A stretch of 28,213 nucleotides of DNA from a virus: the IMG/VR virus record IMGVR_UViG_3300048922_000163, positions 1 to 28,213 of that record. One strand, 5' to 3'. The position numbers and the translations under genes are program-made. Of the stretch, positions 19,914-24,504 are shown one piece after another; the stretch's first letter is position 1, and each line of letters opens with the position of its first letter. A model generated the notes under the pieces. The model saw only the letters and a list, made by a program, of their open reading frames with translations, did not search any database and was not told the origin of the DNA.

Positions 19914-20080
19914 GCGGCGCGCTCCTCTTCCGTCGCCAAGGTGGTGGCCATGCCCCTGCACCAGCCAGCGACTGCGTAGCCGATGGGGATCAGGTCCAGA
20001 TCGGCGTCGACTGACGGCAGGCCTGCCTCGATTTCCTCGGCCTGCTGAATGCACCAGTTCGCCCTCTCGTTTGGTGTCAT
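19910..20080 (-). CDS. 56-aa hypothetical protein between dnaB and ninB
   Basis: The protein starts MTPNERANWCIQQAEEIEAG and is acidic, with no recognised motif. It is flanked by ATGA overlaps with DnaB (20077-20080) and NinB (19910-19913), and GGAG lies seven bases before its ATG. Such four-base coupling on both sides is strong support for a real, small operon gene. No function is assigned. Confidence 0.65.
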   Translation of the reverse strand: MTPNERANWCIQQAEEIEAGLPSVDADLDLIPIGYAVAGWCRGMATTLATEEERAA

Positions 20081-21558
20081 GCGCGCTCTCCGGTTGCCAT
20101 GTCCTTGCCGCTCCTGCGGCGATCGCGCGGCGCGTCGAATCCGCCGCTGTCATCGTCTGCATCGCGCAGCACGGTTCTGAGCGAGTAGTTCGGCTTCTCA
20201 CCGTGGTAGTTCTCGAAGCGGCTGCATTCGAGGTGGTGCCGCAGGTAAGCGGTGCCCGTCTCGCCCTGGCGGTTCTTGGCCAGGATGAATTCCGAGATGC
20301 CGGGAGCGCCGCAGGCGTCCTTCGTGTAGTAGTCGTCGCGGTAGATGAAGGCGATCACGTCGGCGTCCTGCTCGATGCCGCCGGACTCGCGAAGATCGGC
20401 CATCACTGGGCGCTTGTCGGTACGCGTCTCCAGCGAGCGGTTGAGCTGCGACAGCGCGATCACCGGGCATTCCAGCGCCTTGGCCAGCTTCTTCAGCGTG
20501 CGCGAGATGTAGGAGACTTCCTCGGTGCGATTGCCGGCCTTGGCCGGACCCGACAGCAGCTGCAGGTAGTCGACCGCGACCACGCCCAACCCGCCCTTCA
20601 CCTTGGCGTGCATGCGCGACGCGCGCGCCACCAGCGAATCCACCGGCAGCGAGCCGCAATCATCGATCGCCAGCGGCAGGCCATGCAGGAAATTGCGGGC
20701 GATGCTCAGCTTGTGCCAGTCGTCATTGGTCAGTTCGCCCTTCACCCGCATGCGCGACAACGGCACGCCCGAGTGCATGCTCATCAACCGCGCCAGCAGC
20801 TGCCGGCGTCCCATCTCCAGGCTGAATACCGCAGCGTGCTTGCCCTGCACTGCCACGCTGTAAACCCACTCCAGCATGTTCGCCGTCTTGCCCATCGACG
20901 GCCGGGCCGCGAGGATCATCAGGTCCGTTGGTTCCAATCCGGGCAGCTTCCTGGCCACGTTCTGCCACGGCGGGATCAGGCCGAGGTCGGCGGTGCCCTC
21001 GAACCGCGCCTCCATTTCCTCCCACATGCCCTGCAGGTCGCTGCGCACCATCACCAGGCCGCCGTTGCCGCCTGACTGCACGCTGAGGTTGGCGAACTTC
21101 GCTGTAGCACTGGCCACCAGCGCATCAGCGTCCTCGTCGGCAGTGGCGTAGGCGTCGTTGGTGATCTCGGTCGCGCGCTCGATCACGCCCCGCAGCAGCG
21201 CCTTGTTGCGCACGACCTCGGCATAGCCGCGGATGTTGGCCGCTGACGGCGTGGTGCTGGCCAGCTCGACCAAGTACGCGCCGTCGCCCACCAGTTCCAG
21301 CTGGCGCTGGTTCTCGAACCAGTTGATCAGCAGCACGGTGTCGAAGGGCTGTTCGCGGTCGGCCAGATCGCAGATGGCGTGCCAGATCAGCTGGTGGTCG
21401 CGGCGGTAGAAGTCCCGCTCGGTCAACACATCGCGGACATCGCGCAGCGCTTCCGGCGCCAGCATCAGGCCGCCGAGGACGGACTGCTCAGCGTGGATCG
21501 AATGCGGCGGCACCGGCAGGTAGGCGTAGTCGTCGCGGTAGGCAGGCTGGGCGCTCAT
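20077..21558 (-). CDS. dnaB: Replicative DNA helicase, DnaB family
   Basis: This 493-aa protein has a DnaB N-terminal domain (PHSIHAEQSVLGGLML at about 18-33, IWHAICDL and following) and a RecA-like core. Walker A ARPSMGKT is at 218-225, Walker B VVAVDYLQLL ends near 335 (D330), and the SQLNRSLETRTDKRP and DLRESGGIEQDADVI segments match the conserved DnaB C-terminal motifs. The protein unwinds DNA at the phage fork, loaded by the initiator encoded just upstream. The ATG at 21558 overlaps the initiator stop (ATGA) and has AGGAG eight bases upstream. Confidence 0.93.
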   Translation of the reverse strand: MSAQPAYRDDYAYLPVPPHSIHAEQSVLGGLMLAPEALRDVRDVLTERDFYRRDHQLIWHAICDLADREQPFDTVLLINWFENQRQLELVGDGAYLVELASTTPSAANIRGYAEVVRNKALLRGVIERATEITNDAYATADEDADALVASATAKFANLSVQSGGNGGLVMVRSDLQGMWEEMEARFEGTADLGLIPPWQNVARKLPGLEPTDLMILAARPSMGKTANMLEWVYSVAVQGKHAAVFSLEMGRRQLLARLMSMHSGVPLSRMRVKGELTNDDWHKLSIARNFLHGLPLAIDDCGSLPVDSLVARASRMHAKVKGGLGVVAVDYLQLLSGPAKAGNRTEEVSYISRTLKKLAKALECPVIALSQLNRSLETRTDKRPVMADLRESGGIEQDADVIAFIYRDDYYTKDACGAPGISEFILAKNRQGETGTAYLRHHLECSRFENYHGEKPNYSLRTVLRDADDDSGGFDAPRDRRRSGKDMATGERA

Positions 21559-22472
21559 GGGGCCTGCTCCTGCTCACGGGCTTTCTCGGCATCGCGCTCA
21601 CGGGCCAGCTGCACACCGGCGGTCGTCAGTTCGCAACCACCTGCAGGCGGCAACCACCAGAGCTTGAACCAGTTCCGGCGAACGGCGTCGCGGAAGTGGG
21701 CGCGCCAGTCCTTCTGCATCTTGCCGCTGTCGCGATGCCGGCCAGCAAACTCCCGCCATGACAGGTGCAGGAAGTCCTTCGGGATCCCAGCGTCACGGGC
21801 GAAGGCAAAGATCGGATCCGTCCTCGGGATGGCCGATTCGCCAGCGTCCTGGCACTGGTCGAGGAAGGCAGCGAAGGTGATCTTCTCCCGCTTCTTCCGC
21901 CCAGGCTTCGCCCCTTCGGCGGTAGCCGAGGGGGTATGGGGGTGTTTTTCTTCTTTTGGAGACGGAGACGGAGACGGAGACGGAGCATTGCTAGTTCCTG
22001 CTGAGCGCATTGCCGGTGAACTGCTACCAGCATCCGAACCATTGCTACTAGCAGCATGTTCGGCAGATGCAGCACGGATTGCTGCATATTCGGGAACCTG
22101 ACGATTGGCCTCCGATTCACCGTGATGACGCTTCACCGCGTTCCACTTCGCCTTCAACGAACGAAGGTCGGAACCCGCCGACCAGGGCTGATGCTCGGCC
22201 CAGTCGTGCAGCTGGTAGGCGCCATCACTGCCGTCCAGGAACCCGACCGACGCCAGCTCACGCACCAGCGCGTCGTTGTCGCCCGCCCAGTCTGCGGCCA
22301 GCTCGATGTCCTCGGCGGTCATGCCTTCCAGATCACCATCCGGCCGGTTGGCGCGCGCCCACAGAATCAGGCACACCAGCGACCAGCCGGCGGCAGGGCC
22401 CAGCCGACGAACCAGCTTCTTCGTCTTCGGGTGGCCGGGCAAACCCGTGCTGAGACGCGCGTCGGTGCTCAT
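21555..22472 (-). CDS. Phage replication initiator (O-like)
   Basis: This 305-aa protein begins MSTDARLSTGLPGHPKTKKL. The N-terminal part (about 10-110) looks like the winged-helix domain seen in phage replication initiators and replisome organisers encoded before a DnaB helicase (segments LVCLILWARANRPDGDLEG and AVGFLDGSDGAYQL-type). A disordered linker with a Ser-Pro repeat follows (about 185-195), then a C-terminal helical region (FAAFLDQCQDAGESAI onward). I chose the ATG at 22472, which has GAGGGG close upstream and overlaps the regulator's stop; the longer frame to 22586 is antisense to it. Confidence 0.7.
   Translation of the reverse strand: MSTDARLSTGLPGHPKTKKLVRRLGPAAGWSLVCLILWARANRPDGDLEGMTAEDIELAADWAGDNDALVRELASVGFLDGSDGAYQLHDWAEHQPWSAGSDLRSLKAKWNAVKRHHGESEANRQVPEYAAIRAASAEHAASSNGSDAGSSSPAMRSAGTSNAPSPSPSPSPKEEKHPHTPSATAEGAKPGRKKREKITFAAFLDQCQDAGESAIPRTDPIFAFARDAGIPKDFLHLSWREFAGRHRDSGKMQKDWRAHFRDAVRRNWFKLWWLPPAGGCELTTAGVQLARERDAEKAREQEQAP
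21958..21985. repeat. Short hexanucleotide tandem repeat in initiator linker
   Basis: GGAGAC is repeated about four times. It encodes a Ser-Pro repeat in the linker of the replication initiator on the minus strand. Slippage here would change length in steps of two residues without breaking the frame. Confidence 0.7.
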
Positions 22473-22840
22473 ACGCCCCTCAGCATCCCGGCCAAGCGCG
22501 ACACTTCCGAGCGCCAGCACGGCGGCTCCATGGCAGCCTGAAGGTCGAAGAACTGGCGCAGCAGGTTCGATTCGGTCGCAGCGCACAGCGGACCGACCAG
22601 CCGGCGCGGGATCGGACGCATGCCGCGGCGCATGCGCGACACGTAGCTCTCCGACTTGCCGATGGCAGCGGCCACGTTGGCCAGCTTGTGGTCGCCGGCC
22701 TTCATCGCGATGGCCAGCGCCTGGTCTGGGGTCTCGATCTGCCGCACGACTTGCAGCGGTGCGTCCTTCGGCTTCCTGGTCACGCAGATACCCAGGTGAA
22801 GCCGTCCAGTTGGATCCGTCAGGTTGTCAGTGATTTCCAT
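22469..22840 (-). CDS. HTH transcriptional regulator, first gene of replication operon
   Basis: This is a 123-aa protein. After an N-terminal 30-residue beta-like part (RLHLGICVTRKPKDAPL) it has a probable helix-turn-helix at about 52-78 (KLANVAAAIGKSESYVSRMR). The ATG at 22840 is preceded by AAAAGG. It is the first gene after the structured leader region, so it is the probable target of any RNA-based control. Its stop overlaps the initiator ATG (ATGA). It could be a CII-, Cro- or antirepressor-like protein; which one cannot be told. Confidence 0.65.
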   Translation of the reverse strand: MEITDNLTDPTGRLHLGICVTRKPKDAPLQVVRQIETPDQALAIAMKAGDHKLANVAAAIGKSESYVSRMRRGMRPIPRRLVGPLCAATESNLLRQFFDLQAAMEPPCWRSEVSRLAGMLRGV

Positions 22841-22904
22841 GATTTGCCTTTTCTTGCCAGGGGGTTGGGGGCGGAAATGGAGGCCCACCACAACGGAAGG
22901 CCCC

Positions 22905-23030
22905 GATGCCCGGTTCACTGCGGAAAGCCCACGGAAACGTCGTCCAGATGATCTGGACCGGTGGGCGGTGCTTTGCCCTCGTAAGGGCGGGGGGAAAGAC
23001 CCACGTTCGTCCGCTGAAGCGGAAGACCCG
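22905..23030 (-). ncRNA. Structured leader resembling a C4-type phage antisense RNA
   Basis: The stretch contains a near-perfect hairpin (22942-22949 with 22951-22958), a GCCCT/AGGGC hairpin (22975-22979 with 22984-22988) and a CCGCT/AGCGG hairpin (23011-23015 with 23018-23022). GTGGGC at 22961-22966 (plus-strand reading) can pair with either GCCCAC at 22927-22932 or CCCAC at 23000-23004, giving two exclusive folds. A further complementary site (GGCCCACC, 22882-22889) lies about 45 bases before the regulator start. Antisense RNAs encoded in the leader they control are known for phage P1/P7 C4 and its many prophage relatives. I base the family name on layout and on a recalled leader-encoded peptide pattern (IIW..FPWAFR.EPG); a covariance-model search was not possible. 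Confidence 0.45.
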
Positions 23031-23101
23031 CGAGCCGATGGCAGCCGGTGCGGTGGGCGTGGTTTTGCCCTTCCCCACCAGGCCGGTGTGAGGTGGCCAT
23101 G

Positions 23102-23317
23102 TCAGGTGCCATCGGATGCGGACAGGCGCTCGTCCTGCCACTGACCGAACATGGCGGCCGCGAACTCGACGCTCGTGTGCGCTTCGACGCTGCGCCAGAA
23201 TTCGATCTCGGCCAAGGCCGACTCGGCGTAGCCTTCGGGCATGCCACCATTCGCGTCGCACCACACCAGCATCCGGCGGTGCGAGGCTTCCAACAGATCC
23301 GAGGTCTTTTCACACAT
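23102..23317 (-). CDS. 71-aa hypothetical protein, divergent start shared with 55-aa gene
   Basis: The protein starts MCEKTSDLLEASHRRMLVWC and is soluble and helical, with no recognised family. Its ATG and the ATG of the plus-strand 55-aa gene share the palindrome CATG (23315-23318), so the genes diverge from the same bases. GGTGG lies five bases before this ATG. It lies in line with the leftward early operon, between the two-pass membrane protein and the structured leader. Expression of both divergent genes at once seems difficult, so one of the two may not be translated. Confidence 0.45.
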   Translation of the reverse strand: MCEKTSDLLEASHRRMLVWCDANGGMPEGYAESALAEIEFWRSVEAHTSVEFAAAMFGQWQDERLSASDGT

Positions 23318-23483
23318 GGCAACCACCGAGCAGATCGAAGCAGCCCAGCGAAAGCTGGAACGTGCCCGCGCAGAGCGCGATTCGTGGAAGGGAAGCAACC
23401 GGCACAACTACGAGATGGCCTCGCACCTGGTGGCGGCGCTGGAGAAGGAGTTGGCGAAGCTGCTGGGCGAGGACGGGCATTAG
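23316..23483 (+). CDS. 55-aa coiled-coil protein on the opposite strand of the early operon
   Basis: The protein starts MATTEQIEAAQRKLERARAE and is highly charged, with heptads over most of its length. Small helical proteins of this kind are common in phage early regions, but no function is known to me. GAGG lies about ten bases upstream of the ATG. It ends with a 4-bp tail-to-tail overlap with the membrane-protein gene (23480-23483). If transcribed it would produce antisense RNA to the leftward operon. Confidence 0.5.
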   Translation: MATTEQIEAAQRKLERARAERDSWKGSNRHNYEMASHLVAALEKELAKLLGEDGH

Positions 23484-23671: not shown

Positions 23672-23926
23672 TCAGGCCTCCGTTCCGGCCGGCTCGTTTG
23701 CCGGCGCCGGGCCGAAGACGTCGGGGCGCAGTTCGCTGCGGTTGACCCGCCCCCGCGTGGCACGGTGGATTTCGTTTGCCAGCTTCGGACTGGGTTGCTT
23801 GTTCCCCAGCGCGATCTGGTAGAGCGTTCCAACGCTGCAGTTGGCCTTTTGGGCAACCGAAACCAGAACCGGGCACTTCAGCGTGCCGGTTCCCCCTTTG
23901 CTGGTGGCGTAGTTGGTCAGGTTCAT
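23672..23926 (-). CDS. YdaS/Cro-like DNA-binding protein
   Basis: This 84-aa protein starts MNLTNYATSKGGTGTLKCPV. Its HTH lies at about 21-50 (VAQKANCSVGTLYQIALGNK), followed by HRATRGRVNRSELRPDVFG, an ending that is typical of YdaS/Cro-like phage repressors (RxELRPDxxP-type). It would bind the shared operators and repress the repressor gene during lytic growth. Its promoter ends only 7 bases before the ATG, so the transcript is probably leaderless. An in-frame ATG at 23977 lies upstream of the -35 and is not usable from that promoter. Confidence 0.8.
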   Translation of the reverse strand: MNLTNYATSKGGTGTLKCPVLVSVAQKANCSVGTLYQIALGNKQPSPKLANEIHRATRGRVNRSELRPDVFGPAPANEPAGTEA

Positions 23927-23933
23927 GCGCCGC

Positions 23934-23962
23934 ACATTACCGTTTTGGTTATTGGCGGTCAA
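23934..23962 (-). promoter_or_regulatory. Leftward early promoter (PR-like)
   Basis: On the minus strand TTGACC (23957-23962) and TAATGT (23934-23939) are 17 bp apart. The start of transcription should fall at or within a base or two of the Cro-like ATG (23926). The -10 and -35 are overlapped by the two operators at 23936-23977, as expected for repression. Confidence 0.7.
23936..23952. promoter_or_regulatory. Operator O1 (immunity region)
   Basis: A 17-bp imperfect palindrome of the form ATTACCG-TTT-TGGTTAT. It covers the -10 of the leftward promoter. Its reverse complement differs from the operator at 24930-24946 at only three positions. Confidence 0.7.
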
Positions 23963-23977
23963 TACCGTTTCGGTCAT
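23961..23977. promoter_or_regulatory. Operator O2 (immunity region)
   Basis: A 17-bp palindrome AATACCG-TTT-CGGTCAT, centred 25 bp from O1, overlapping the -35 of the leftward promoter. It lies 36 bp before the repressor ATG and could also control that gene. Confidence 0.7.
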
Positions 23978-24012: not shown

Positions 24013-24504
24013 ATGGACGCAAGCACCGCCCGAACCGAAAACATGCGCCGCCTGGTCAATCAGGCGGGCGGCCCAGCCGAATGGGCGCGACAGTACGGCG
24101 GCAGCCGCTGGGCACAGCCACAGGTGAGCCAATGGATCTCTGAAGGTTCTCCAAAGGGGATAGGCGGGAGACTTGCGCGTGATCTGGAATCAGCCATGGG
24201 CCTCGCTCACGGTGAGCTCGATAGGCCGCCAGTTGCTGCGTCTCAACCTGTGGGAATAGACGTCGCTACGCTCCGTTCCGCCCACCGGCTGCTTCAGCTG
24301 GTGGCGGAGATCAGGGGAGAACCACCTGTCCCAGACATCAACGTGGTTGCTCTGGCCGTTGCCTATGAAACGGTCAGAGCGGAGGCCGCAGGTCTGGACG
24401 ACAGCAACGTTCTCGACTTCATGCGGGCCTTTGTGGCTCGTCTGGAAAAGACCAAGGGAGCGCAGGATGGCATTGAGCGAAGAGCGGCTGAAGGAACTGG
24501 CTAG
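24013..24504 (+). CDS. CI-like repressor without self-cleavage domain
   Basis: This 163-aa protein starts MDASTARTENMRRLVNQAGG. It has an N-terminal HTH (PAEWARQYGGSRWAQPQVSQ, about 20-40, then GIGGRLARDLESAMGL) and a helical C-terminal part (about 75-160). It is divergent from the YdaS/Cro-like gene and flanked by the operators, the position of CI. There is no peptidase S24 domain with its Ser-Lys dyad and Ala-Gly cleavage site, and the length is too short for one. No Shine-Dalgarno precedes the ATG at 24013, so it may also be translated from a leaderless message. Confidence 0.7.
   Translation: MDASTARTENMRRLVNQAGGPAEWARQYGGSRWAQPQVSQWISEGSPKGIGGRLARDLESAMGLAHGELDRPPVAASQPVGIDVATLRSAHRLLQLVAEIRGEPPVPDINVVALAVAYETVRAEAAGLDDSNVLDFMRAFVARLEKTKGAQDGIERRAAEGTG

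Follow-up and report, generated by a model that had tools for sequence, protein, structure and literature searches.

The window analyzed here comprises positions 1–28,213 (28,213 nt) of IMGVR_UViG_3300048922_000163, a temperate phage record, and the block under study occupies positions 22841–23110. The minus-strand early operon contains, in order, a cro-like YdaS gene, small ORFs, the block, an HTH regulator gene, a replication initiator gene, and a DnaB gene (Table 1). This is the gene order of lambda, with the HTH gene filling the cII slot; within this lambda-like module for immunity and replication, the block is the cro–cII intergenic region. No sigma-70 promoter was recognized in the region, and no iterons that might mark a replication origin were seen besides the 10-bp boxes listed in Table 1. 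The phage collection searched gave no DNA or protein match. Two more small ORFs adjoin the block, at 23319–23483 on the plus strand and 23102–23317 on the minus strand; both have relatives in L006 and L007 (L numbers designate the loci compared), so that the interval from cro to the regulator contains interleaved genes of both strands.

Table 1. Features of the immunity and replication region of the window.
Feature	Position	Strand	Basis
DnaB-like helicase	20077–21558	-	Pfam DnaB_C, E 4e-82
Replication initiator	21555–22472	-	phrog_9474, E 2e-15
HTH regulator of 123 aa; cII slot, after cro and ahead of the replication genes	22469–22840	-	phrog_35 transcriptional repressor, E 4e-4; XRE-like fold, pLDDT 76
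Four boxes (TTGTC/TTTCC/TTGCC/TTGCC) in exact 10-bp phasing over the regulator start; probable operator	22824–22858	+	Phasing conserved
Terminator-like hairpin ahead of the regulator, early-operon strand	22880–22904	-	-15.0 kcal/mol in the window; relatives
Shine-Dalgarno sequence GGAAGG of the small gene	22895–22900	+	GGAAG/GGAAC core kept in close relatives, L053, and L088
Putative protein gene, unannotated, 61 aa (MPGSLRKAHGNVVQMIWTGGRCFALVRAGGKTHVRPLKRKTREPMAAGAVGVVLPFPTRPV); runs opposite to the early operon	22906–23091	+	Coding signature, start conservation, relatives
Putative conserved early-leader RNA fold (helices 23079–23046, 23036–22998, 22989–22974, and 22966–22927)	22927–23079	-	Codon-column-shuffle null, pair counts
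Cro-like gene (YdaS family)	23672–23977	-	Pfam PF15943, E 3e-8
CI-like repressor	24013–24504	+	phrog_12107 transcriptional repressor, E 5e-24

Relatives were collected using the HTH protein as the lead, which gave the viral contigs L002–L009 and L053, Stenotrophomonas maltophilia D5.1 (L010), and the 42-kb record NZ_CP090425 (L023). A block of 240–260 nt ahead of the regulator was conserved in all of the relatives reached in this way, and the sequences upstream of it were unrelated between several of these phages. The most strongly conserved stretch within the block, GTGAACCGGGCATCGGGGCCTTCCG, is complementary to the Shine-Dalgarno sequence and start codon of a protein gene on the plus strand, which the first-pass annotation of this DNA had overlooked.

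We evaluated the coding potential of the block in six representatives against 300 column shuffles. The frame of the small gene was the only one of the six frames with a coding signature (synonymous fraction, z 3.8; BLOSUM score, z 4.25; 0/300 for each), and it contained no stops. An ATG start and an open frame were present in all 12 close loci, and the indels within the gene were multiples of three. Every relative exhibited the same protein pattern, which starts with MPGS or MPSS and continues with NVVxLxW..GRxFALVRAGGKxRVRPLKR...GVVVPFP. The dN/dS values were 0.4–0.8 for most pairs and 0.6–1.2 for pairs with L006, which indicates that selection on the protein is moderate. Two frames of the minus strand were rejected: frame f1 over the leader gave a weaker synonymous signal (z 2.25) with no BLOSUM excess and is explained as a shadow of the plus-strand frame, and the FRSEPG frame is interrupted by a stop codon in L004. 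The small protein gave no PHROG match at E≤1 and no significant Pfam or NCBIfam match, and its AlphaFold model consisted of three strands of low confidence (pLDDT 53). The PLSDB gene table for NZ_CP090425, which is incomplete, lists no gene at this position. A putative small protein gene that lies antisense to the early operon and has been overlooked is well supported by these alignments.

Relatives of the small gene occur in nine or more diverged phage loci. A profile built from nine members of the protein family found L019, L079, L080, and L081, which had been left out of the profile-building set, at E values of 8e-17 to 6e-8. Protein searches added L088, L089, and L091, and phage contigs beyond the profile matches encode relatives at 56–65% identity. 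L019 was at first a short leader match; the covariance model and the antisense protein showed that it is a real member. The short leader matches in L016–L018 and L020 were taken as chance, and the weak covariance matches in L077, L078, and L082–L085, at which no convincing protein relative was found, were also rejected. The known hosts of the phages carrying the small gene are Xanthomonadaceae.

In these phages the small gene sits opposite the regulator in the cII slot, and the regulator types are swapped while the small gene stays. The regulator is of the HTH type in the window, L088, L063, and L064, is CII-like in L019 (phrog_101, E 3e-7), and belongs to another family in L080 and L091. In regards to the HTH regulator of the window, no Pfam family was found above the cut-off, and lambda CII was absent among the top 50 fold matches of its XRE-like model.

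Lambda CII uses direct repeats one turn apart, TTGC-N6-TTGC. In the window, the regulator gene lies between cro and the replication genes, and direct repeats one helix turn apart occur near its start, with the four boxes starting at 22824, 22834, 22844, and 22854. TTGC-N6-TTGC occurs once in the window, at these boxes, against 1.14 occurrences expected by chance, so that the evidence for the boxes is their conservation. The 10-bp phasing was kept in all of the 16 HTH-type loci examined, and nearly all HTH-type loci have TTGCC-N5-TTGCC over the start of the regulator. The TTGCC boxes are replaced in L080 and L091 by a pair of GTTATCAG boxes, spaced 10 bp apart and lying within the same interval ahead of the regulator start. 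The boxes of the window are the probable operator of the HTH regulator.

Box sequence seems to vary with regulator type, as seen on comparing L080 and L091 with the HTH-type phages. In the HTH-type loci compared by eye, a conserved GCGAAA/GCGGAA/GCGTAA element follows the last box at a constant distance of 13 nt (region 22858–22875 of the window, plus strand). This spacing looks like part of a rigid promoter; a sigma-70 -10 element was not recognizable there.

To assess the conserved fold, RNAalifold was applied to 12 codon-aligned relatives and to 300 shuffles of whole codon columns, in which the protein and the codon composition are kept. The minus strand gave a z value of -4.9 (0/300), and the plus strand gave -1.65. 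With one sequence per clade, the values were -4.65 and -0.4, respectively. The same test was tiled over the HTH, initiator, and DnaB genes, and all 12 control windows (8–11 sequences) fell within ±2.4, the extreme being -2.4; four DnaB windows were unscorable, and the four-clade control comprised only two sequences outside the HTH gene. Different helices of equal or greater length take the place of the helix at 22966–22927 in the L007 and L005 groups. Column shuffles leave relatedness uncontrolled, and the evidence for the fold is therefore moderate. The first-pass annotation had proposed a structured leader on the early-operon strand that precedes an HTH regulator and lacks an Icd-like gene. 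This placement is upheld, and as a predicted structure the leader is moderately supported among the close relatives.

A rival explanation is that selection acts on the small gene alone and that its codons and a GC-rich composition give rise to the minus-strand folds incidentally. Several results agree with this explanation. The 341-nt leader of the window, taken as a single sequence, folded no better than dinucleotide shuffles (z -0.12), L053 alone exhibited no fold excess, and conservation of the protein reaches further than that of the fold. Furthermore, the minus-strand z value fell to -2.5 when L088 was added and to -1.2 when L019 was added, which indicates that the fold belongs to the closer relatives. 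The codon-column null argues against the explanation, since the minus-strand excess survives it and is confined to that strand, whereas the control windows of the same phages do not exceed 2.4. We consider selection on the small gene alone to be rather unlikely.

A terminator-like hairpin precedes the regulator in most HTH-type relatives. The hairpin of the window has a strong stem and a weak U-tract (AUUUCC); stable hairpins with unrelated stem sequences and U-rich tails were found in L007, L053, L063, L064, L081, and L088. This hairpin downstream of a multi-hairpin RNA, together with the early-operon position ahead of the replication genes, is what would be expected if the RNA alone were functional, working in cis as a leader, for example as an attenuator or an antiterminator of the HK022 put kind, and the plus-strand ORF were accidental. 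The put RNA of HK022 is likewise a hairpin RNA in early phage transcripts and occurs twice per genome, as putL and putR (PMC9378689). In contrast, the leader described here is longer, is antisense to a protein gene, and is present once per phage: instead of two copies after pL and pR, leader model R1 gave a single match in each of six phage contigs, some of which are possibly incomplete. The protein family, moreover, can still be recognized in loci that retain the fold weakly or not at all (L019, L063, L064, and L080), and its conserved Shine-Dalgarno sequence and start and its in-frame indels also argue against an accidental ORF. A function of the RNA alone is accordingly improbable in our estimation.

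The first-pass annotation had described three hairpins, which are present on the minus strand at 23036–22998, 22989–22974, and 22958–22942, and two mutually exclusive folds in which GTGGGC (22932–22927, minus strand) pairs with GCCCAC at either 22966–22961 or 23058–23053. Both complements are present in the window. Pairing with the nearer complement was upheld in the relatives by two-sided changes (AU to CG and CG to UA), whereas pairing with the farther one was not kept in the L007 group or L053, as read from the alignment. Only one of the alternative pairings is thus retained, and the notion of two conserved exclusive folds is not borne out. The extra complementary site GGCCCACC (22882–22889, plus strand) fared no better; it is present in the window and was not kept in the L007 group or L053.

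On the basis of these elements, the leader had been assigned to the C4-type antisense immunity RNAs. We searched positions 22750–23350 with the Rfam models of C4 (RF01695) and the C4 target (RF03163), and no match was obtained at E≤10. Rfam over the whole window gave no C4, and neither model matched at the gathering threshold in ten relatives. The same search found the C4 of phage P1 (68.8 bits) and its target element, which served as the positive control. No a/b target sites complementary to the RNA loops were detected with RF03163. The leader shares with the C4 of P1 and P7 a structured RNA in a phage operon leader, and differs from it in having no model match, no conserved targets, and no icd/ant. 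That the leader is processed into an antisense immunity RNA of the C4 type or the P4 CI type is very improbable, because the hairpins and the short complements between leader segments in the window, on which the proposal was based, are not accompanied by any C4 match with a working control and the complements outside the main helix are not conserved; membership in C4 is rejected on these grounds, and there is no positive evidence for a C4-like action either. The conserved block is better explained by the plus-strand gene than by a C4 RNA.

With these alternatives weighed, the reading that we favor as probable is a lambda-like cro/pRE/cII region in which a small antisense gene takes the pRE position and the early leader is structured. 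The gene order and the boxes suggest a pRE-like regulation. In this scheme, the HTH regulator would bind the four phased boxes over its own start codon and, once bound, would activate a plus-strand promoter in the way that CII activates lambda pRE. The promoter would yield the small protein and a transcript that is antisense to the leader and cro and runs toward the repressor gene at 24013. On the opposite strand, the leader fold and the hairpin may act like lambda tR1, slowing or terminating early transcription ahead of the regulator and replication genes. More tentatively, the same DNA may be used twice at the lysis–lysogeny switch, one strand carrying a regulator-controlled small protein and the other a conserved regulatory leader fold, in which case the mRNA of the protein would automatically interfere with the leader; we regard this double use as possible and somewhat doubtful.

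The small protein belongs to a conserved family that gene finders omit and that holds the leader position of lambda pRE while the neighboring regulator is exchanged. If the antisense layout proves functional, the regulator, the small protein, and the RNA fold would be linked within a few hundred bases of the lysogeny switch, and the locus would be a case, open to direct testing, in which protein and RNA structure overlap on opposite strands.

In lambda, cI is driven by PRE, which is located between cro and cII, and YdaT has this role in CP-933P (PMC9986795). The locus resembles lambda and the ydaS–ydaT region of CP-933P in the order of repressor, cro, CII-slot regulator, and replication genes, in its YdaS-type cro, and in a regulator presumed to influence transcription toward the repressor from between cro and cII (PMC9986795). 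In contrast to these systems, a small protein gene of an unnamed family heads the antisense strand, and the regulator is XRE-like, a candidate CII counterpart by position, with four boxes rather than two. Apl of phage 186 also binds direct repeats one helix turn apart in the switch region (PMC7498355); unlike the regulator considered here, Apl is also an excisionase, and the boxes here lie over the regulator start codon. In phage Fc02 of Pseudomonas aeruginosa, olg1 is a small gene on the repressor strand that overlaps lytic genes, and Olg1 leads to superinfection exclusion (PMC9936078). The small gene described here, which also lies on the repressor strand over opposite-strand lytic genes, is likened to olg1 by its arrangement.

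In S. maltophilia GYH (L015, L021, L022, and L023), the chromosome and two circular "plasmid" records of 42,041 bp, apparently from one assembly, match the leader equally well. These copies are probably one phage, present as a prophage and as an excised or duplicated record.
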